A stretch of 64,000 bases of DNA from Amycolatopsis lexingtonensis (GTDB lineage Bacteria > Actinomycetota > Actinomycetes > Mycobacteriales > Pseudonocardiaceae). This document shows, piece by piece, positions 1,186-40,484 of the stretch; the first letter of the stretch is position 1; every line of letters starts with the position of its first letter. The notes under the pieces were generated by a model. The model ran no database searches. It saw nothing but the letters and a program-made list of their open reading frames with translations, and had not been told where the DNA came from. Made by a program: the position numbers and the translations under genes. The DNA lies in assembly GCF_014873755.1 (NCBI RefSeq), contig NZ_JADBEG010000001.1, positions 8,468,501-8,532,500 on the forward strand, written 5' to 3'.

Positions 1186-3312
1186 TCAGGACAAGTGAAA
1201 AGTCCTGGACTGATCGTTAAGGGAAACTACAGTGTCGGGCCTCCACAGGCGCTCGCCGAAGAGGGCCAGCGCCGCGGGCAGCAGGATGCCGCGGACGACC
1301 GTCGCGTCGAGCAGGATCGCGAACGCCATGCCGAGGCCGAGCATCTTGTACTCGATCGCGGCCAGGCTGAGGAAGATGCCGAACACCCCCGTCATGATCA
1401 GCGCCGCGCTCGTCACGACCCCCGAACTGCTCGCCGTGCCCTCGACGATCGCCTCCCGCGCCGGGCTGCCCGCCCGCCGCCGCTCGCGGATCCGGCTCAG
1501 GATGAAGACGTGGTAGTCGGTGCTCAGCCCGAACAGCAGCACGAACAGGAACACCGGCAGCCAGCCGAGCACCCCGCCGTAGGGCGTGAAACCCAGTAGT
1601 GGCGCGAGAAAACCGTCCTGGAACACCAGGGTGAGCACGCCGTAGGCCGCGCCGGTCGAGAGCAGGTTGAGCAGGATCGACACCGCCGGCACGGCCACCG
1701 AGCGGAACACCGCGAGCAGCAACACGAAGGCGAGCAGCATGATGAACCCGAAGACGTACGGCGCCCGCGCCAGCACTTGCGCGGTGAAGTCGTGGGCTTC
1801 GGCCGTCCGGCCCGCGATCGCGTAACCGACGCCGTCCACGCGCCCGACCGTCCGCGGCAGCAGGGTTTCGCGCAACGCGGTGAGCGTGCGGTCCGCCGCT
1901 TCGCCGTTTCCGCTGCCGCCGAGCGGGATCCGGACGACGAGCGCCTGGTCCACCGGGACGACCACCGCCGGTTTCGGCGTCGCCGCCGTGAGTTCGGCGA
2001 TCGCGCGGCCCACCGCGGGCGTGTCGACCGGCCCGCCGCCCTCGGCCCAGAGCACGACGTGCGCGGGCATCGTAATGCCGGGAAACGCTTCCTGGACGCG
2101 CACCGCGGCGTCGATCACCGGGATGCTGCGCGGCAGGCTTTCGGTCGGGGCCGGATCCTGCAGCCGGATCCCGAACGCGGGCAACGCGAGCAGCACCAGC
2201 AGCGCGGCCGCGAGCCCGCTCCAGAGCGCGGGCCGCCGGGTGACGACGCCGGCCACCGCGGCCCAGAAGCGCGAGCGCGTCCGGCGCTTGCCCAGCCACG
2301 GGACCCTGACCCGGTCGATTCCGGTGCCGAGCAGGGAAAGCGTCGCGGGCAGCACCGTCACCGCGGCCAGGACGGCCAGCCCGACGACCAGGATCGTGCT
2401 CACCGTCAGGCCGCGCAGGTTGTCGAGGCCGGTGAACAGCAGGCCGGTCACGCACAGCACGACGGTCAGCCCGGACACGACGATCACGTGCCCGGACGTC
2501 CGCGCGGCGATCCGGATCGACTCCTCGACGCCGTGCGCGCGTTCCTCCCGGGCCCGGCGCAGGAAGAACAGGGAATAGTCGACACCGACGGCCATGCCGA
2601 TGAGGAGCGTCATCGCGGAAGTCGCGCTGTTGACCGGGATCCAGTTGTCCACAACGGACAGGATGCCGAACGCGGCGACCACGGTGGTCCCGGCGAGCAG
2701 CACCGGCACCGCGGCCGCGACCAGCGAGCCGAACACGACCAGCAGGATCAGCGCGGTGAGCGGGAGCGAACGGGCTTCCGAGCGCCCGATGTCCTCCTTG
2801 ATGCTCCGGTCGACCGCGCCGGACACGCTGAGGTCGCCGGCCTGGGCGAGCCGGGCGTCCGGGTGGCGGGCGGCGACCGTCCCGACGGCCGCGGTCGCCG
2901 TCGCGAGGTGCGCGCGGATTTCCGTGCCGGTGCCGGTGATCCGGAAGCTGACGAGGCCGGACCGGCCGTCGGCGGAGACCCGGTCCGGGTCGTCGAGCGG
3001 GGAGCGGACGTCCGCGACCGCGCCGGACGCCGTCAACGTGGTCACCAGGTCGGTCACGACGGCGGTCGCCTCGCGCGGGACCAGGACGTTCTCCCAGAAC
3101 GGTTCGCGGGTGGCCTGGCGGTCGAGGACGGCCTGGCCGGTCCCGGCGTCGCCGGCCGGGCTCGACCGCGCGTCGGTGCCGGGCAGGAACGTGCCGGCGG
3201 CCCAGGCGAAGGCGACGAGCGCCAGCCAGCCGAGGATCGCGGCGGCGCGGTGGCGCGCCGACCAGTCCGCGACGCGTTCCACCAGCGGAGCCGAGGTGCT
3301 TGCGGGCAGCAT
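1186..3312 (-). CDS. MMPL-family RND-type transporter
   Basis: 708 aa inner-membrane transporter of the MMPL/RND superfamily. It shows the two-fold layout: TM1, a ~150-residue extracytoplasmic loop, a TM2-6 block (AVGVDYSLFFLRRAREE, the MMPL signature), then a second loop and TM7-12 with the matching LLFGLSTDYHVFILSRIRER. The paired Asp-Tyr motifs are the proposed proton-relay residues. Such proteins export lipids or drugs in actinobacteria. ATG at 3312 is preceded by GGAAGGA. It lies downstream of an ArsR regulator and a small membrane protein and upstream of EamA; a 112-bp gap with two hairpins separates it from them, so it may be only partly coupled. Confidence 0.9.
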   Translation of the reverse strand: MLPASTSAPLVERVADWSARHRAAAILGWLALVAFAWAAGTFLPGTDARSSPAGDAGTGQAVLDRQATREPFWENVLVPREATAVVTDLVTTLTASGAVADVRSPLDDPDRVSADGRSGLVSFRITGTGTEIRAHLATATAAVGTVAARHPDARLAQAGDLSVSGAVDRSIKEDIGRSEARSLPLTALILLVVFGSLVAAAVPVLLAGTTVVAAFGILSVVDNWIPVNSATSAMTLLIGMAVGVDYSLFFLRRAREERAHGVEESIRIAARTSGHVIVVSGLTVVLCVTGLLFTGLDNLRGLTVSTILVVGLAVLAAVTVLPATLSLLGTGIDRVRVPWLGKRRTRSRFWAAVAGVVTRRPALWSGLAAALLVLLALPAFGIRLQDPAPTESLPRSIPVIDAAVRVQEAFPGITMPAHVVLWAEGGGPVDTPAVGRAIAELTAATPKPAVVVPVDQALVVRIPLGGSGNGEAADRTLTALRETLLPRTVGRVDGVGYAIAGRTAEAHDFTAQVLARAPYVFGFIMLLAFVLLLAVFRSVAVPAVSILLNLLSTGAAYGVLTLVFQDGFLAPLLGFTPYGGVLGWLPVFLFVLLFGLSTDYHVFILSRIRERRRAGSPAREAIVEGTASSSGVVTSAALIMTGVFGIFLSLAAIEYKMLGLGMAFAILLDATVVRGILLPAALALFGERLWRPDTVVSLNDQSRTFHLS

Positions 3313-3388
3313 GAACTAAGGTCCTTCCGTGAAGGAGTGATCCGATGAGAGCTCGCCCTCGGGCGAGTGGGTGCTTCTTCTTCCTGGG

Positions 3389-3410
3389 CCGCCGAGTTGC
3401 CGCTCGGCGG
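3389..3410. terminator. GC hairpin between small membrane gene and MMPL gene
   Basis: CCGCCGAG and CTCGGCGG form an 8-bp stem with a 6-nt loop. A second tight inverted repeat (CTCGCCC/GGGCGAG) lies at 3352-3367. Neither has a T tract on the minus strand, so partial termination or mRNA processing is possible but not shown. Confidence 0.35.
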
Positions 3411-3424
3411 TCCAGGGCCTCAGG

Positions 3425-3673
3425 TCAGTCGACCTCCTTGAGCACGTGTTCGATGGACCGCAGCCGGTCCTGGACGTCCCGCAGCTGCCGTTCGGTCTCT
3501 TCCTGCGTCCGGACGGCTTTCTCGGCCAGCGACCGGTATTCGTGCTCCCGGGCCAGCTTCGCCTTGGCGCGCCAGGTCGAGGCCAGCTGCACGATCGCGA
3601 TCGACAGCACCACGGTGATCAGGACGAAGACCCCGGTCACGCCGATGATCTCCTGCCACTGGTGCCAGTTCAT
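3425..3673 (-). CDS. small membrane protein with coiled coil (PspB-like layout)
   Basis: 82 aa. One transmembrane segment at about residues 8-30 (IIGVTGVFVLITVVLSIAIV), then a charged, heptad-rich helix to the C-terminus (RSLAEKAVRTQEETERQLRD, IEHVLKEVD). The size, topology and a tail resembling 'LxxxAxxMxxRIxxLExILD' recall phage-shock PspB, but I cannot establish homology by eye. The ATG at 3673 overlaps the stop of the ArsR gene (ATGA), so translation is probably coupled. The function is unknown; membrane-stress sensing or partnering with the ArsR protein or the MMPL transporter is an inference. Confidence 0.75.
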   Translation of the reverse strand: MNWHQWQEIIGVTGVFVLITVVLSIAIVQLASTWRAKAKLAREHEYRSLAEKAVRTQEETERQLRDVQDRLRSIEHVLKEVD

Positions 3674-4011
3674 GTCCGTCCCTCCTCGCCGTCCCCGCGG
3701 ACGGACTCCGGTGTGGTCAGCGTCGGCACGGCGGCCGCGATCGCCTCCGGCGTCAGGACGACGGAAAACGGCGTCAGCTCGTAGAACCGCAGCGTTTTGC
3801 CGTCTTCCCCGACTTCGGAGCTGGCGGTGACGAGACCGGCGGCTTCGAGCTTGCGCAGGTGCACCTGCAGCAGCGCGCGGCTGATCCGCAGCTCCCGCGC
3901 CAGCTTGCTGACGTAGGTGCGTTCGGCCAGCAGGGCGGCGACGATCCGCAGCCGGTGCGGGTTGCCGAGGGCCCCCAGCTGCCGCAGCAGGTCGTCGCCC
4001 GTCGTCCACAT
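3670..4011 (-). CDS. ArsR-type winged-helix transcriptional regulator
   Basis: 113 aa. The core GNPHRLRIVAALL..YVSKLARELRISRALLQVHLRKLEAAGLV is an ArsR/winged-helix HTH with recognition helix near residues 40-55. No metal-binding Cys pair is visible, so a non-metal signal is likely. TAACTT at 4020-4025 lies 8 nt before the ATG, suggesting a leaderless mRNA. It is translationally coupled to the small coiled-coil membrane protein, a pairing that suggests a membrane-linked signal. Presumed targets are itself and the MMPL/EamA genes. Confidence 0.85.
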   Translation of the reverse strand: MWTTGDDLLRQLGALGNPHRLRIVAALLAERTYVSKLARELRISRALLQVHLRKLEAAGLVTASSEVGEDGKTLRFYELTPFSVVLTPEAIAAAVPTLTTPESVRGDGEEGRT

Positions 4012-4066
4012 GCCAACAAAAGTTAGCAGGTGGCCGGGCGCGGTGCCATCGGGGTGATCCCCGAGA

Positions 4067-4804
4067 TCACATCGGGTGTTCCAGCCACACGTTCGGCTCG
4101 ACGTAGGTCGCCGTGTCGTGGGCGATCGACGCGTGGACCGGGGCGATGCCGCCGGGGATGAAGTTCTCGCCGTCCTGGAGCTTCACGCCCGTCCACTCGC
4201 GCCAGTCGGCCAGCGAGCCGGCCAGCGTCACGGCGAACGGGCAGACCTTCACCACGCGGGCGCCCAGGCGTTCGTGGGTGCGCAGCCAGCGGTCGGCGAG
4301 CAGGCCGTCCGGGCGGCGGCGGGCCGCGTACTCCGGCATCGGGGCCGCCGGTTCGGCTTCCTTGCCGATCGGGCGCACCGACACGATCAGCTTGCGCAGC
4401 CCCGTTTCCGCCGCGCGGGCCTTGAGCGCCTTCAGCATCGGTGCCGACAGGCCGGTGCCGCGCAGGTGCGGCGCGATCACGACTTCCAGCGCGCACAACG
4501 CGTTCGGCTCACGGCCGTCCATCACGTCCTGGGCCGCCCACTCGATCGCCTGGTCCCAGCCGTGGTCGGGCAGCTCGGTGCGGCCGGGGGCCGGGTAGGC
4601 GAGCGGGACCGACAGGGCGCGGGCGATCGGCGTGCCGTCGTCGGCCAGCGCGATCAGGAAGTACCGCGGCCAGTGGCGCAGGAACCGTTCGCCGGTGATC
4701 ATCCGGCCGCCGGCGCCCTGGTAGATGAACTGGCCGCCGACGTCGCCGAGAGCCAGGGCGGCGTCGAGGAGATCGGGGCGCTCGGCAAGATCGACAACGC
4801 GCAT
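4067..4804 (-). CDS. GNAT-family N-acetyltransferase
   Basis: 245 aa from ATG 4804 (a TTG 12 bp upstream is possible). The acetyl-CoA-binding motif A is seen as ALEVVIAPHLRGTGLSAPML near the middle, with the usual β4-αN arrangement. The C-terminal part (WRTHERLG-like, then TGVKLQDGENFIPGGI) is typical of larger, single-domain actinomycete GNATs. The substrate is unknown. It stands between the ArsR gene and a DUF2786 gene, all on the minus strand with short gaps; no operon signal is seen. Confidence 0.75.
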   Translation of the reverse strand: MRVVDLAERPDLLDAALALGDVGGQFIYQGAGGRMITGERFLRHWPRYFLIALADDGTPIARALSVPLAYPAPGRTELPDHGWDQAIEWAAQDVMDGREPNALCALEVVIAPHLRGTGLSAPMLKALKARAAETGLRKLIVSVRPIGKEAEPAAPMPEYAARRRPDGLLADRWLRTHERLGARVVKVCPFAVTLAGSLADWREWTGVKLQDGENFIPGGIAPVHASIAHDTATYVEPNVWLEHPM

Positions 4805-4856
4805 GCGCCCAGTCAAACGGAAAGATCACCGGCGGCGATAGCGGCAACCGGGCGAC

Positions 4857-5576
4857 TCAGCGCAAGGCCTTCTGGCGGCGGGTCAGCGCCGAGGGGTCGA
4901 GGTTCGCCTTCGTGCCGGCGTCGTGGCCGTCGAGGTAGCCGCTGCCCGACAGCCGCCGGGGCGCGGCCGAGCGCAGGTCGCCGTACTCCGAGTCGAACGC
5001 GTGCTGCACCAGCTGCGCGCGATCGCGGACGACCAGTTCCGCCGACCGCTCGCCGGGTGCCGCCGTGCGGACGGCTTCCGATTCGGCGTGCGTGAGCCGC
5101 TCGTGGACCGCGCGCGCGAAGCCGTGCAGCCACGTGCGTCGGTAGGCGGCCAGCGATTCGCCGGGGAAGAAGCCGTCCGGCCGGACGCGGGTCAGCTGGG
5201 TGCTCGCCTGCAGCAGCAGGCTGGTGAACAGCAGCTCCACGCGGCCGAGGTCGGAGTGGAAGCCGAACACCGTGACGCTGTCGACCTTCTGGCCGTAGCG
5301 GTGCAGCAGCGTCCGGCAGCGCAGCGGGTACGCGACCGACGTCAGCAGGCTCGCCTTGTCCCGGCTGTACGGGTCGTTCATCGGGATCTTGAGCGTGCCG
5401 ATCTCGTCGGTGGTCGCGCCGGACTCGGCGAGCATCGCCTGGTCGATCCCGTACCGCGCGACGAGCTCGGCGGCCTTCCGGTTGTACGCCTCGGCCTCCG
5501 CCTCGGTGACCGCCGGGTCCTCGGCCTTGGCCAGCAGCTTGCGGATGCGCTCGAGCTGCGGGTCTGACTCGGTCAT
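4857..5576 (-). CDS. DUF2786 domain protein
   Basis: 239 aa. Residues 4-45 (RIRKLLAKAEDPAVTEAEAE, AYNRKAAELVARYGID) match the DUF2786 helical motif found in bacterial and phage proteins of unknown function. The rest is mixed α/β with a basic C-terminus (NLDPSALTRRQKALR). ATG 5576 is supported by TACCCT at 5583-5588, six nt upstream, giving a leaderless transcript. No enzymatic motif is visible; a nucleic-acid role is sometimes proposed for the family but nothing here proves it. Confidence 0.75.
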   Translation of the reverse strand: MTESDPQLERIRKLLAKAEDPAVTEAEAEAYNRKAAELVARYGIDQAMLAESGATTDEIGTLKIPMNDPYSRDKASLLTSVAYPLRCRTLLHRYGQKVDSVTVFGFHSDLGRVELLFTSLLLQASTQLTRVRPDGFFPGESLAAYRRTWLHGFARAVHERLTHAESEAVRTAAPGERSAELVVRDRAQLVQHAFDSEYGDLRSAAPRRLSGSGYLDGHDAGTKANLDPSALTRRQKALR

Positions 5577-36093: not shown

Positions 36094-36945
36094 GTGGTTG
36101 AACTGTTGGGACCCGCCGAAATCCGCGGGCTGGCGGCCGAGCTGGACGTGCGGCCGACCAAGAAGCTCGGGCAGAACTTCGTGCACGATCCCAACACCGT
36201 CCGCCGGATCGTCGAGCTCGCGCACGTCGGGCCGGACGACGTCGTGCTCGAGGTCGGGCCCGGGCTCGGGTCGCTGACGCTGGGCCTGCTCGCCACCGGG
36301 GCGCGGGTCGTCGCCGTCGAGATCGATCCGAAGCTCGCCGCGCGGCTGCCCGAGACCGTCGCCGAGCGGGGGGCCGACGCCGCCGAGCGGCTGACCGTCG
36401 TCGGGGCCGACGCGCTGCGCGTCGCGAACGACGACCTGCCGGGCGCGCCGACCGCGCTCGTCGCCAACCTGCCGTACAACGTCGCCGTGCCGGTCGTGCT
36501 GCACCTGCTCGCCGAGGTGCCGTCGCTGCGGTCCGGGCTCGTCATGGTGCAGACCGAGGTCGCCGACCGGATGGCGGCCGGGCCGGGCAGCCGGATCTAC
36601 GGCGTCCCGAGCGTCAAGCTCGCTTGGTACGGTCCCGCACGGAAAGTCGCCGCGGTGCCACGGTCGGTGTTCTGGCCGGTGCCCAACGTGGACTCCGCGC
36701 TCGTCGCGTTCGAACGCGGCGACCAGCCGGCGTCCGAAGACCGGGACAGTCTCTTCACCCTGGTGGACGCCGCTTTCTCCCAACGCAGGAAAACGCTTCG
36801 CGCCGCGCTCGCGGGCTGGGCGGGCTCGGCCGAGCGGGCCGGCGAGCTCTTGACGGCCGCCGGAATCGACCCGAAGACCCGCGGCGAGCAGCTCGACGTG
36901 CACGACTTCGCCCGGATCGCCGCCCGCGCGCAGGTCCACGGCTGA
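36094..36945 (+). CDS. rsmA: 16S rRNA (adenine1518/1519-N6)-dimethyltransferase
   Basis: 283 aa KsgA/Rsm[24 protein letters not shown] motif [16 protein letters not shown], acidic [11 protein letters not shown], catalytic [12 protein letters not shown] (NLPY), then [20 protein letters not shown] and [14 protein letters not shown]. Dimethylates two adjacent adenines in helix 45 as a late check on 30S assembly. Resistance to kasugamycin follows its loss. Lies between rpfB and, after an inserted SAM-riboswitch module, MFS and TetR genes, ispE. Confidence 0.95.
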
Positions 36946-36989: not shown

Positions 36990-37073
36990 ACCTCGTGACT
37001 GCGACACCTCCAGTCGTGTGATGTGGGCCAACGGGCTTGCTTTCGCTCCGTGGGATCGGCTTAACTCAGTACG

Positions 37074-37160
37074 TCCATCCCGAGCGACCGAGAGACCTGG
37101 CTCGCCGAAGTCGCAGCAACCACCCTCCACAGGGCAGGTGCTACCGCCAGGACCGATGGA
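37074..37160 (+). ncRNA. SAM riboswitch aptamer (SAM-I clan, no P4)
   Basis: P1 TCCATC/GATGGA (37074-37079, 37155-37160); P2 GCGAC/GTCGC (37084-37088, 37110-37114) then CGAG/CTCG (37089-37092, 37101-37104); loop AGACCTGG whose CCTGG (37096-37100) pairs perfectly with CCAGG (37147-37151) as the SAM-clan pseudoknot; the GCAACC...GGTGCTACC core of P3 and J3/4 is kept. P4 is absent, so it is closer to the SAM-IV or SAM-I/IV variant than to classical SAM-I. It lies ~215 nt before a MetN-like gene, with a leader ORF and terminator between. Confidence 0.85.
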
Positions 37161-37171
37161 GGCCGTTTTCG

Positions 37172-37264
37172 ATGAAGAGGGTAGCTCGCCCCCTGCTGCT
37201 GACCAGGCGCCGCGTTGTCGACGAAGGCCGCCGCTCCGTCTCCGCATGTCGCCGCTCGCGCTGA
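37172..37264 (+). CDS. putative 30-aa leader peptide
   Basis: ATG 37172 to TGA 37264, with GGAGG 11 nt upstream. The product (MKRVARPLLLTRRRVVDEGR, then RSVSACRRSR) resembles the short Arg-rich, Cys-containing 'leader peptides' (LLTRRxHVDLxRxxSAxCR) found ahead of sulfur-metabolism genes in actinobacteria. I infer that translation over the single Cys codon affects the downstream terminator. No experimental evidence is implied. Confidence 0.5.
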   Translation: MKRVARPLLLTRRRVVDEGRRSVSACRRSR

Positions 37265-37331
37265 GCTTCGTCTGAGCCGTCCCACCCTTCTCAACGCACC
37301 GTCCACTGCGGACGGACACTCGCTTGCGGCC

Positions 37332-37363
37332 GGGCGCGCCCTCGTGCGCTGCGCCCTGTTTTT
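37332..37363 (+). terminator. intrinsic terminator before MetN-like gene
   Basis: GGGCGC (37332-37337) pairs with GCGCCC (37351-37356), then TGTTTTT. It ends just 3 nt before the GGAG RBS (37366-37369) of the gene at 37375, so termination would block expression. An earlier hairpin (CCGTCC/GGACGG, ~37,301-37,317) may be an alternative pairing. Confidence 0.65.
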
Positions 37364-37374
37364 CTGGAGCTGTC

Positions 37375-38388
37375 GTGATCACCGTCGAAAACCTGTCCAA
37401 ATCCTTTGCCACCAACGGAAATTCCGTCGTCGCCCTGCGTGACGTGAGCGTCGACGTCCAGGCCGGCTCGCTGTTCGGCGTCGTCGGCCCGGCCGGTTCC
37501 GGCAAGTCCGTCCTGGCCCGTTGCATCGCGCTGCAGGAGCGCCCCGACCGCGGGGTCGTCCGCCTCGACGGCCTCAACACCGGCACGCTCGACGGCCGCC
37601 GCCTCCGCGAAATCCGCCGTCAGCTCGGCGTCGTCTCGTCGAAGCCGGAGCTGATCGCCGAGCGCACCATCGCCGGCAACATCGCTTCCCCGCTGGAGCA
37701 GCTCGGTGTCGAGGGCCCGCAGCGCCGCAGCCGGGTCGGCTCGCTGCTCGACCTGGTCGGCCTGACGCCGCGCGCCGCGCAGCGTCCCGGTGAGCTCACC
37801 GCGGGTCAGCTCCGCCGCGTCGCGGTCGCCAAGGCGCTCGCCGCCGCGCCCGCCGTGCTGCTCGCCGACGACCCGACCGCCGGGATCGACCCGGAGGAGG
37901 CCGGCTCGGTGCTCACCGTGCTCGACCGCGCCCGCTCCGAGCTGGGCGTCACCGTCGTCGTCACCACGCCGGACGCGGGCGTCGTCCGCCGGCTCTGCGA
38001 CGACGTCGCGGTGCTGGAAGACGGCACCGTCGTCGAGCGCGGCACCGTGCTCGACCTGATCTCGAACCCGGGCAGCCGCACCGCGCAGGCGCTGCTGCCG
38101 ACCATCGAAACCCCGCGATCGCAGAACGCGCGCTACGACCGCTCGGTCGACGTCGTGCTGGTCGGCTTCGCGTCGGTGGGCGCGCTGCTGCCCGAGGCCG
38201 CCGGCCGCTTCGACGTCGAGTTCGCCACCATCGGCGGCGGCCTGACCCGGATCGGCGACACCCCGGTCGGCCGCTTCCGCCTCGGCGTCCGCGGCGAGCG
38301 CGCCGACGCGGCGCTGGCGTGGGTCGCCGAGCGCGGCGGCCACGTCACCCAGACCGCCCGCGGCCCCCAGGCCGTCGTCGCCGCCTGA
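37375..38388 (+). CDS. orphan MetN-like ABC ATPase with NIL domain
   Basis: 337 aa, full length for MetN. Walker A GPAGSGKS (38-45); C-terminal NIL-type ACT-like domain (~250-335, VLVGFASVGALLPEAAGRFD, VGRFRLGVRGE) that in MetN binds methionine. But the signature is LTAGQLRRVAV instead of LSGGQ, and Walker B ends LLADDPTAG, with Asp where the catalytic Glu should be. No MetI or MetQ is adjacent. The SAM riboswitch upstream ties it to methionine status. It is either a distantly acting importer ATPase or a regulatory ATPase. GTG 37375 has GGAG at 5 nt. Confidence 0.8.
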   Translation: MITVENLSKSFATNGNSVVALRDVSVDVQAGSLFGVVGPAGSGKSVLARCIALQERPDRGVVRLDGLNTGTLDGRRLREIRRQLGVVSSKPELIAERTIAGNIASPLEQLGVEGPQRRSRVGSLLDLVGLTPRAAQRPGELTAGQLRRVAVAKALAAAPAVLLADDPTAGIDPEEAGSVLTVLDRARSELGVTVVVTTPDAGVVRRLCDDVAVLEDGTVVERGTVLDLISNPGSRTAQALLPTIETPRSQNARYDRSVDVVLVGFASVGALLPEAAGRFDVEFATIGGGLTRIGDTPVGRFRLGVRGERADAALAWVAERGGHVTQTARGPQAVVAA

Positions 38389-38451: not shown

Positions 38452-39846
38452 TTACCGGGTGCCGCGCGGGAGGACCAGCAGCGCGGTGAGGGCGGCCGCG
38501 GCGACGAGGGCCGCCGCCCAGGCCGACGCCGTCGTGTAGCCGTGGACGATCGCCGACGGCGTCGTGAGGCCCGCCGAGGCCGCGGTGGCGATCGTGTTCA
38601 GGGCCGCGGTGCCGAGCGAAGCGCCCACCTGCTGTGACGTCGTCACGAACGCCGAGGCCGCGCCCGCGTCCCGCGCGCCGATGTCGCGGGTGGCGACGTT
38701 CAGCACCACCGGCATGCACAGCCCGGCCCCGACGCCGAGCAGCAGCTGCATCGGCAGGACGACCCCGGCGTAGGACGCGTCCGGCGTCAGCCGCGTGGCC
38801 GCCAGGAGCCCGCAGGCCAGCACGAACAACCCGCCCGCCAGCAGCGGCCGCGGGCCGACGCGCGGGAGCAGCCGTCCCGAAAGCTGCGTCGACGTCAGCA
38901 TGTTCGCCCCCAGCGTCGGCAGGAACGCCAGCGCCGCGGCGAGCGCGCCGTAGCCCATCACGACCTGCAGCTGGTAGGTCAGGAACAGGAACATCCCGAA
39001 CGCGCCGAACGACGCCGCCCCGACCGTCAGGTAGGCGACGGCGCGAGCGCGGTCGCGCACCACCGCGAGCGGCAGCAGCGGGTGCGGGTGCCGGGCCTGC
39101 CGGACCACGAACCAGCCGAGCAGGAGCGCCGACAGGGCCAGAAAACCGAGTACTGGCAGGGAAAATCCTTGAGTGGCCACTTCGGACAGTGCGTGCACCA
39201 GCAGCACGACGCCGCCACAGCTGAGCGCCGCACTGGTCCAGTCCAGCCGGGTGCCGCGGTGCGCGGCCGTCGGCGGCACGGCGAACCAGGCGCCCAGCCC
39301 GGCGAGCACGGCGACCGGCACGTTGACGTAGAGGCTCCAGCGCCAGTCGAGGAACTGCGTCAGCGCGCCGCCGACGGTGAGTCCCAGCGCGGAGCCGGAC
39401 ATCGTGATGGCGCTGAAGATCCCGAACGCCTTCCCGCGTTCGCGCGGGTCGGTGAAGGTGAGGGTCAGCAGCGACATCGTCGACGGCGCGAGGAGCGCGG
39501 CGAACACGCCCTGCGCGGCCCGCGCCCCGATCAGCCAGCCGCCCGAAGGGGCCGCGCCGCCGACCGCGGACGCCACGGCGAACCCGGCGATGCCCACGAG
39601 CAGGGTGGTGCGGCGGCCGAACCGGTCGGCCAGCCGCCCGCCGAGCAGCAGCAGGCCGCCGAACGCCAGCGTGTACGCCGAAATCGCCCACTGGCGGCCG
39701 GTGTCGGACAGACCCAGCGCGCGCTGGGCCGAGGGCAGGGCGATGTTCACGACGGTCGTGTCGAGCACGACCATCAGCTGGGCCAGGCCCAGTGCGGCGA
39801 GCGCGAGCCAACGGCCCGCGACGCGCGGTGGCGCGGTTGTGGTCAT
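38452..39846 (-). CDS. DHA2-type MFS multidrug transporter
   Basis: 464 aa, about 14 TM helices (EmrB/QacA family). Motif C-like LAQLMVVLDTTVVNIALPS at TM1, motif A GRLADRFGRRTTLLVG, GRQWAISAYTLAFGGLLLLG. It probably pumps out a hydrophobic drug by proton antiport. ATG 39846; divergent TetR gene 104 bp away with two large operators between. Confidence 0.92.
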   Translation of the reverse strand: MTTTAPPRVAGRWLALAALGLAQLMVVLDTTVVNIALPSAQRALGLSDTGRQWAISAYTLAFGGLLLLGGRLADRFGRRTTLLVGIAGFAVASAVGGAAPSGGWLIGARAAQGVFAALLAPSTMSLLTLTFTDPRERGKAFGIFSAITMSGSALGLTVGGALTQFLDWRWSLYVNVPVAVLAGLGAWFAVPPTAAHRGTRLDWTSAALSCGGVVLLVHALSEVATQGFSLPVLGFLALSALLLGWFVVRQARHPHPLLPLAVVRDRARAVAYLTVGAASFGAFGMFLFLTYQLQVVMGYGALAAALAFLPTLGANMLTSTQLSGRLLPRVGPRPLLAGGLFVLACGLLAATRLTPDASYAGVVLPMQLLLGVGAGLCMPVVLNVATRDIGARDAGAASAFVTTSQQVGASLGTAALNTIATAASAGLTTPSAIVHGYTTASAWAAALVAAAALTALLVLPRGTR

Positions 39847-39873
39847 GGTCAACCCCCGGGGTAAGCTGCGGAT

Positions 39874-39935
39874 GCATTGCTTGTCGGCCGACAAGCAATG
39901 CCAAGCTAAGTGATTACTAGTCGGCCGTCAAGTAA
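39874..39935. promoter_or_regulatory. twin TetR operators between MFS and TetR genes
   Basis: Bases 39874-39901 are a perfect 28-bp palindrome (half GCATTGCTTGTCGG). A second, imperfect 22-bp palindrome at 39914-39935 has the same CGGCCG centre and TTACT/AGTAA ends. They cover the divergent promoters. The protein encoded at 39951 is the obvious ligand. Confidence 0.85.
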
Positions 39936-39950
39936 GTTGAGGAGCGGAGC

Positions 39951-40484
39951 ATGGCCGGGCGGCGCACCGACACGCGCGAACGCATCCAGCGCGTCGCGCT
40001 CGAACTGTTCGCCGAGCAGGGGTACGAGGGCAGCTCGCTGCGGGAGATCGCCGAGCGGCTCGAGGTGACGAAAGCCGCGCTGTACTACCACTTCCGCACG
40101 AAGGAGGACATCGTCACGAGCCTCCTGGAGGACTGGGGAGCGGCGCTCGACGACCTCCTCGGGCGCGAGACCCGGCCCGACCGGCTGCTCACCGAGTACG
40201 CCGGGCTGGTCGAGCACCGGTTCGGCCCGGTCATCGGCCTGGTGCAGCGCAACGCGACCGCGTTGAAGGCCATCGCCGCGGGCGCCGGGCTCGCGGACCG
40301 GATGCTCCGCCTCCACGAGCTGCTCTGCGGCGGGTCCGACGCCCCCGAGGCGAGCCTGCGCGCGCGGCTCGCGCTGGTCGCCGTGCAGCTCACCAGCGTC
40401 GAAGGCGGCCCGGAAACCCCGCCCGAGGTCGCGCTCGCCGTCGGGCTCGACATCCTTTCTCCTGGTCGGAACACGGACACGTAG
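39951..40484 (+). CDS. TetR-family repressor of the MFS pump
   Basis: 177 aa. HTH ERIQRVALELFAEQGYEGSS, LREIAERLEVTKAALYYHFR; small TetR_C domain. ATG 39951 with GGAGCGGAGC upstream. Palindromes in the divergent gap match its expected dimeric binding. The start region of ispE overlaps its end: the ispE -10 (40482-40487) straddles its stop. Confidence 0.92.
   Translation: MAGRRTDTRERIQRVALELFAEQGYEGSSLREIAERLEVTKAALYYHFRTKEDIVTSLLEDWGAALDDLLGRETRPDRLLTEYAGLVEHRFGPVIGLVQRNATALKAIAAGAGLADRMLRLHELLCGGSDAPEASLRARLALVAVQLTSVEGGPETPPEVALAVGLDILSPGRNTDT

Follow-up and report, generated by a model that had tools for sequence, protein, structure and literature searches.

An apparently transporter-free MetN homologue in Amycolatopsis lexingtonensis, preceded by a SAM-I riboswitch aptamer and a cysteine-containing leader peptide

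In a stretch of 64,000 nucleotides from the genome of Amycolatopsis lexingtonensis (the window), a MetN-like protein looks like a domesticated, probably non-hydrolysing relative of the importer ATPase rather than one part of a split operon, and the first target of the SAM-sensing RNA ahead of its gene appears to be a tiny peptide that contains cysteine. The full reading, drawn from sequence comparisons, is that a MetN kept after repeated loss of metI and metQ would now serve as a non-hydrolysing NIL-domain sensor or partner protein under two-step control by SAM and the leader peptide; we put its probability at roughly 60%. The features are located in Table 1.

Table 1. Positions of the features discussed, numbered from the first base of the window
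Feature	Positions	Strand	Remarks
ksgA	36094-36945		upstream of the module; named by eye
SAM-I (S box) riboswitch aptamer	37072-37162	+	RF00162 match; SAM binding predicted from sequence
CCTGGC, P2-loop half of the SAM-I pseudoknot	37096-37101	+	read from sequence
GCCAGG, second half of the pseudoknot (J3/4)	37146-37151	+	read from sequence
3' strand of aptamer helix P1, GATGGAGG	37155-37162	+	last 8 bases of the Rfam match
GGAGG, likely ribosome-binding site of the leader peptide	37158-37162	+	within the P1 3' strand
Leader peptide ORF, MKRVARPLLLTRRRVVDEGRRSVSACRRSR	37172-37264	+	30 codons; positions include the stop; between aptamer and metN
Invariant TGT (Cys) codon of the leader peptide	37247-37249	+	TGT in 130/130
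Candidate hairpin followed by a T-rich tract	37332-37363	+	just before the metN ribosome-binding site; own scan, weak
MetN-like protein	37375-38388	+	337 aa; ATPase motifs decayed, NIL kept; GTG start behind GGAG (chosen)
NIL domain	38146-38346	+	residues 258-324; PF09383, 34.9 bits (cut-off 24)
MFS gene	38452-39894	-	downstream of metN; named by eye

A full-length MetN-like ATPase with a NIL domain and altered ATPase motifs had been proposed for this locus in a preliminary description, and the protein bears this out. Its start was placed at a GTG codon, the longer listed ORF beginning at TTG 37324, and besides the NIL domain it matches PF00005 with 88.6 bits. The best NCBIfam model is MetN (TIGR02314), at 200.5 bits far under the cut-off of 499.7; since an intact relative accompanied by metIQ also scores only 282.5 bits, this cut-off does not separate the two states of the locus described below. 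Walker A (GPAGSGKS) is the sole intact motif of five: the Q-loop Gln is replaced by Ser (GVVSSK), the signature LSGGQ reads LTAGQ, the catalytic Glu is Asp (LLADDPT) and the H-loop His is Pro (TTPD). We assume for Walker A, the Q-loop, LSGGQ, the Walker B Glu and the H-loop their usual roles in this protein. An Asp in place of the catalytic Glu need not abolish ATP hydrolysis, and the Q-loop region is the part of such ATPases that contacts permeases. Within the NIL domain, one residue differs between the E. coli structures 3dhw (Asn) and 6cvl (Ala), and in the family this residue is not conserved, even where metI is present. The VIA-align list is filled by ABC ATPases and, its four MetN rows apart, says little on the NIL domain. 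Second, divergent NIL-ATPase copies with an altered Walker B occur in three genomes (G010, G012 and G052, loci L193-L195), the signature being altered as well in the last two, and their fetched stretches contain no Rfam riboswitch.

The family survey places the window protein in one of two states of a widespread locus. Relatives over the whole protein (71-98% identity), found at 30 named loci in Amycolatopsis, Prauserella and Qaidamihabitans, have the same altered motifs. A query with the NIL domain finds the gene in 130 of 150 sampled Pseudonocardiaceae genomes and in 41 of 46 genera; counts over 130 genomes refer to these, the 20 without a match being left out. An order-wide sample of 200 genomes, in a limited single-sequence search, gave 28 matches to the NIL gene, all from Pseudonocardiaceae. 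In 56 of the 130 genomes metI lies directly behind metN and is followed by metQ, and all five ATPase motifs are intact in every one of the 56. No metI was found behind metN in the other 74, the window included, which represent 25 genera (the sequence behind metN spans only 146 bases in G045, where nothing was seen, and 420 in G087, where ispE is there). Motifs have been lost in 72 of these 74 orphans: all five in 3, four in 56, three in 11 and two in 2. Walker A is retained in 68, the catalytic Glu in 17, the Q-loop Gln in 4, the His in 3 and LSGGQ in 2, as judged by our own patterns, of which the strict LS[GR]G[QE] counts LSEGQ as lost; the GQ of the signature is kept in most. At one locus (L161) the gene behind metN has MetI as its best NCBIfam model and the next gene MetQ, both below the curated cut-offs.

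One locus was fetched for each of 40 other genera, and within the fetched stretches ksgA lies upstream at 38 and ispE downstream at 39, the exceptions being contig ends (L153 and L191) and L189; ksgA is about 3 kb off in L171. The module had been described earlier as inserted between ksgA and ispE. It is simplest to regard it instead as the remnant of a leader-metN-metI-metQ operon that is still there in 56 of the 130 genomes. On a tree of 60 genomes (FastTree, five neighbouring proteins, midpoint root; G087 not included, and one of 61 sets, by its absence that of G043, dropped for too little sequence), a loss-only count needs at least six separate losses to account for the absence of metI, two of which are old and span 20 and 11 sampled genomes. 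Genera 19, 22 and 46 contain both states, and G022 and G060, the only orphans with a full set of motifs, come from the same genus as the metIQ-bearing G089, as expected of recent loss. The reverse history, in which decayed ATPases regained every motif, was considered and is implausible. In the simplest history, then, an ancestral metNIQ operon would have lost metIQ at least six times with MetN retained.

Selection was estimated from pairs with pS of 0.05-0.65. The 27 Amycolatopsis sequences, counting that of the window, give a dN/dS of 0.126 in the ATPase half and 0.058 in NIL, and in genera with metI the ranges are 0.03-0.12 and 0.03-0.13, respectively. Some orphan genera are looser, with ATPase and NIL values of 0.39 and 0.32 (g45), 0.22 and 0.17 (g26), 0.18 and 0.18 (g4), and 0.19 and 0.50 in g31, where NIL is perhaps partly misaligned; with dN/dS raised in this way, some of these proteins may be drifting. 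Between genera that have metI, identity is 81.5% in the ATPase half and 74.6% in NIL, and in orphans the order is reversed (59.5% and 66.4%). The reversal holds in the 14-genus tree clade of the window (46 genomes; 62.2% and 71.7%) and is strongest in ten genera of that clade (67.3% and 81.5%), but it is missing in the clade's genera 4, 28, 36 and 39 (59.5% and 57.4%) and in a second old orphan clade of 21 genomes (65.1% and 64.2%). A shift of constraint toward NIL after transporter loss is not general. What argues for a domesticated MetN is the combination of intact motifs in all 56 genomes with metIQ, decay in 72 of 74 without it, at least six losses and, in Amycolatopsis, dN/dS far below 1.

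The same observations bear on one alternative, that the gene is a slow pseudogene decaying without function once metIQ has been lost. The repeated decay of ATPase motifs, the raised dN/dS of a few genera, a second old clade in which NIL is conserved no more than the ATPase half, and the lack of a NIL-gene match in 20 of 150 genomes and in five of 46 genera would all be consistent with such decay. We nevertheless consider it unlikely, because the ORF and its leader peptide persist in all 74 orphans across 25 genera, the Rfam aptamer is present in the orphan representatives tested, the dN/dS values in Amycolatopsis are low in both halves, and NIL is better conserved than the ATPase half in the clade to which the window belongs.

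A second alternative is an ordinary split operon, in which the protein would power a methionine importer or a related one, the other two components of which, permease and binding protein, are encoded elsewhere. The list of ORFs agrees with the earlier account of the neighbourhood, with ksgA upstream, an MFS gene downstream and no MetI or MetQ on either side; behind the MFS gene follow TetR and then ispE (names by eye). Since an ispE match starts 74-173 nt behind metN in the six other sampled genomes of the same genus, MFS and TetR do not seem to belong with the module. Both (38452-40484) also stand between metN and ispE in genera g10, g15, g20, g26 and g41. The window genome is a single contig of 10.74 Mb with one NIL match above cut-off, the present one, and a search through it, in which scores were computed for the best 19 of 52 MetI candidates, gave no MetI match at E<=1e-8; nor does any other place in it hold a MetN that passes the curated cut-off. 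Its best match to the MetQ family reaches 26.6 bits, or 27.1 with neighbours, at a cut-off of 27, and another reaches 10.2 bits. The borderline match (L007) is a 387-aa binding-protein-like ORF beside a sulfonate-type permease (by eye) and was judged to be a different protein. Six other sampled genomes of the genus likewise gave no MetI at E<=1e-8 and MetQ matches of only about 23-28 bits. A metIQ pair lacking its own ATPase, the arrangement that would have reduced the locus to a split operon, was looked for in the window genome and not found.

Across the family, a distal MetI-like gene at E<=1e-20 is present in 26 of the 74 orphan genomes, and a distal MetQ in several, as a split operon would have it. 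However, 48 of the 74 are without a MetI-like gene at that threshold, some of them having weaker permease matches, and the one distal locus read of the eight fetched (L264, from G014) holds at 2052-4872 a second, complete metQ-ATPase-metI system whose own ATPase has intact motifs. The lost Q-loop Gln, signature, Glu and His further argue against the orphan protein powering any permease. We therefore judge a split operon to be very unlikely. The preliminary description had offered two options, a transporter encoded elsewhere and a SAM- or methionine-sensing ATPase acting without one. The first finds no support in a genome in which neither metI nor a convincing metQ was found, or in a protein in which four of five motifs are gone; the second fits better as to the missing transporter, and its working ATPase is the part that falls away, as the protein is probably no longer one.

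The orphan protein could also be half of an ATPase, forming with the canonical ATPase of another importer a heterodimer in which one of the sites is dead. Exporters provide known examples of such pairs, and the retention of Walker A in 68 of 74 orphans and of the signature GQ in most would suit a partner of this kind. The Q-loop region has changed greatly, in several genera with shortening, and no partner gene lies beside metN, which makes a heterodimer just as improbable as the split operon. We return, then, to a domesticated MetN that would no longer power transport and would probably bind ATP without productive hydrolysis. With Walker A and NIL kept and the motifs for hydrolysis and coupling lost, it would bind nucleotide and work, through its NIL domain, as a sensor of a sulfur amino acid or as a partner protein. 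A second role of this kind may have belonged to MetN, beside transport, even before the loss.

The RNA ahead of the gene adds to this picture. The SAM-clan aptamer with a perfect pseudoknot that had been proposed for it is recovered by an Rfam search, its RF00162 match of 58.4 bits exceeding the gathering score of 44.4 (E 6.3e-11 for the whole window), and CCTGGC and GCCAGG form a perfect 6-bp complement. Pairing between the P2 loop and J3/4 has an established role in SAM-I aptamers. Rfam scans covered 40 genus representatives and 6 named loci, and a SAM-I aptamer lies upstream of metN in all 40 representatives; a crude aptamer pattern fits 118 of the 130 genomes, and four of its 12 misses have Rfam matches. 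In the same 40 representatives the 3' strand of P1 contains GGAG with an in-frame ATG, GTG or TTG (TTG in three) 3-14 nt behind it. The genome of the window has a further SAM riboswitch of the same Rfam family before thrC (L005, G000:C1:10283866-10283999, minus strand; RF00162, 76.3 bits), where a stretch resembling a ribosome-binding site lies directly at the end of P1 or behind it and is followed at once by the start of thrC, with no leader peptide. The same holds for other families of the class: the 30 best SAM riboswitches checked there, all linked to thrC, have no such peptide behind them (best score -23; at one of the 30, L344, the sequence is incomplete and the aptamer end was guessed). 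One genome of the family sample, G004, has six SAM riboswitch matches, and the NIL gene was not found in it.

The riboswitch leader as first described was right about the aptamer and overlooked the leader peptide, the presence of which changes how the riboswitch must act. The peptide of the window scores 52.8 on a profile built from 27 distinct cores in 88 strict matches (58 from the family, 30 from named loci) among 160 upstream regions, against a maximum of -3.0 for a null of reverse complements and base shuffles. It is found in all 130 Pseudonocardiaceae genomes with the NIL gene (56/56 with metI, 74/74 without) with scores of 31 to 59, and the 72 family regions outside the profile seed all score at least 31.0. 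Mean entropies at codon positions 1, 2 and 3 are 0.55, 0.36 and 1.41 bits; conserved amino acids combined with free third positions are what a translated ORF shows. All 130 genomes have TGT as the last Cys codon of the core, whereas Cys in the metN genes is encoded 237 times by TGC and 13 times by TGT. Between the leader stop and the start of metN there are 60-227 nt.

Relatives of the peptide are found beyond the family. When a class-wide sample of 296 genomes was searched with a profile of the peptide, 105 gave matches at E<=0.01, many of them weak, and 103 of the 105 lie outside the family. The window's own genome yielded no further copy apart from a match at chance level (E 5). A good part of the 28 outside loci read precede genes of sulfur type (all names by eye): cysteine synthase (cysK)-like genes at L296, L305 and L311, thiosulfate sulfurtransferase or rhodanese-like genes at, for example, L297, L301 and L315, sulfonate-type permease genes at L308, L309 and L318 and, as a weaker case, a serine-acetyltransferase-like gene at L319; several other matches look spurious or unclear. 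None of 20 outside loci tested, of the 28 fetched, has an Rfam match. The last Cys codon is TGT in outside leader peptides as well, at L301, L310, L315 and L321-L323. Of three outside relatives compared with NCBIfam, one is above the cut-off of NF042934 and just short of that of NF042933, a second matches NF042933 weakly, and the match of the third is negligible. The peptide of the window has no NCBIfam or Pfam match (none at E<=10) and thus does not reach the scores of NF042933 or NF042934, and that of a sister genus is likewise without an NCBIfam match. An untranslated ORF, whose codon pattern would reflect RNA structure while the riboswitch acted on metN directly, is highly improbable: the invariant TGT could be an RNA constraint, but the codon-position entropies, the occurrence of relatives ahead of other sulfur genes at loci with no Rfam aptamer and the distance of metN from the leader stop all stand against it.

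How the leader peptide might act on metN can be outlined. Binding of SAM would close P1 and hide the ribosome-binding site of the leader peptide, so that the riboswitch would act first on the peptide. When SAM is low, the leader would be translated, and passage of the ribosome or its stalling at the Cys codon would decide metN expression; attenuation by leader peptides, including cysteine-responsive attenuation, is a known form of control. The step from leader to metN may proceed by coupling, by Rho or by a hairpin. Our own hairpin scan before metN is positive at 13 of 31 loci (window and 30 named); the candidate in the window is weak, since a terminator tool finds no intrinsic terminator before metN. 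The whole 321-nt leader folds less stably than shuffled sequences (z +3.1). The interval between the leader stop and metN has a C content of 0.41 and a G content of 0.28, and the notion that it serves as a Rho site is an idea only.

Taken furthest, and tentatively, SAM and cysteine would be read in series by a two-input gate driving a transporter-free pseudo-MetN that acts as a NIL-domain sulfur sensor, the regulatory role of MetN predating the loss of its transporter. If so, the repeated loss of the transporter with MetN kept would reveal a second, regulatory role of MetN. The locus offers a natural experiment with at least six repeats, in which an importer loses its channel and its binding protein and the ATPase subunit stays and sheds its ATPase motifs, and a role of MetN and its NIL domain independent of transport is thereby open to direct test. 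On the RNA side, the expression platform of the riboswitch appears to be another regulatory element, a leader peptide of the Cys type, in 130 of 130 sampled genomes with the NIL gene, and a serial reading of two sulfur metabolites would be unusual.

Each part of the module belongs to or resembles a known kind, and to our knowledge neither the combination nor the repeated loss of a transporter with its ATPase subunit kept has been described. Like a typical SAM-I riboswitch of RF00162, the aptamer is full length, scores above gathering, has the pseudoknot and stands before a sulfur-related gene; unlike in such a riboswitch, the ribosome-binding site within the 3' strand of P1 belongs to a separate leader peptide and not to the large gene, and of the two SAM-I riboswitches compared within the window's genome, only the one before metN, not that of thrC, has such a peptide. 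The Ms5788A family Cys-rich leader peptide (NF042933) and the putative leader peptide NF042934 share with the peptide of the window a core LTxRRxxDxxR and a Cys near the end, and this peptide fits a small ORF before a sulfur gene with the core LTxRRxxD and a Cys near its end, a definition that is our own reading of the models' matches. It differs from these relatives in lying under a SAM aptamer, whereas the outside loci tested had no Rfam match. Finally, compared with MetN of the MetNIQ importer (TIGR02314; E. coli 3dhw, 3tui and 6cvl), the window protein stands in a genome in which no MetI and no convincing MetQ were found and has lost four of the five ATPase motifs, and it has kept the C-terminal NIL domain of that importer subunit.
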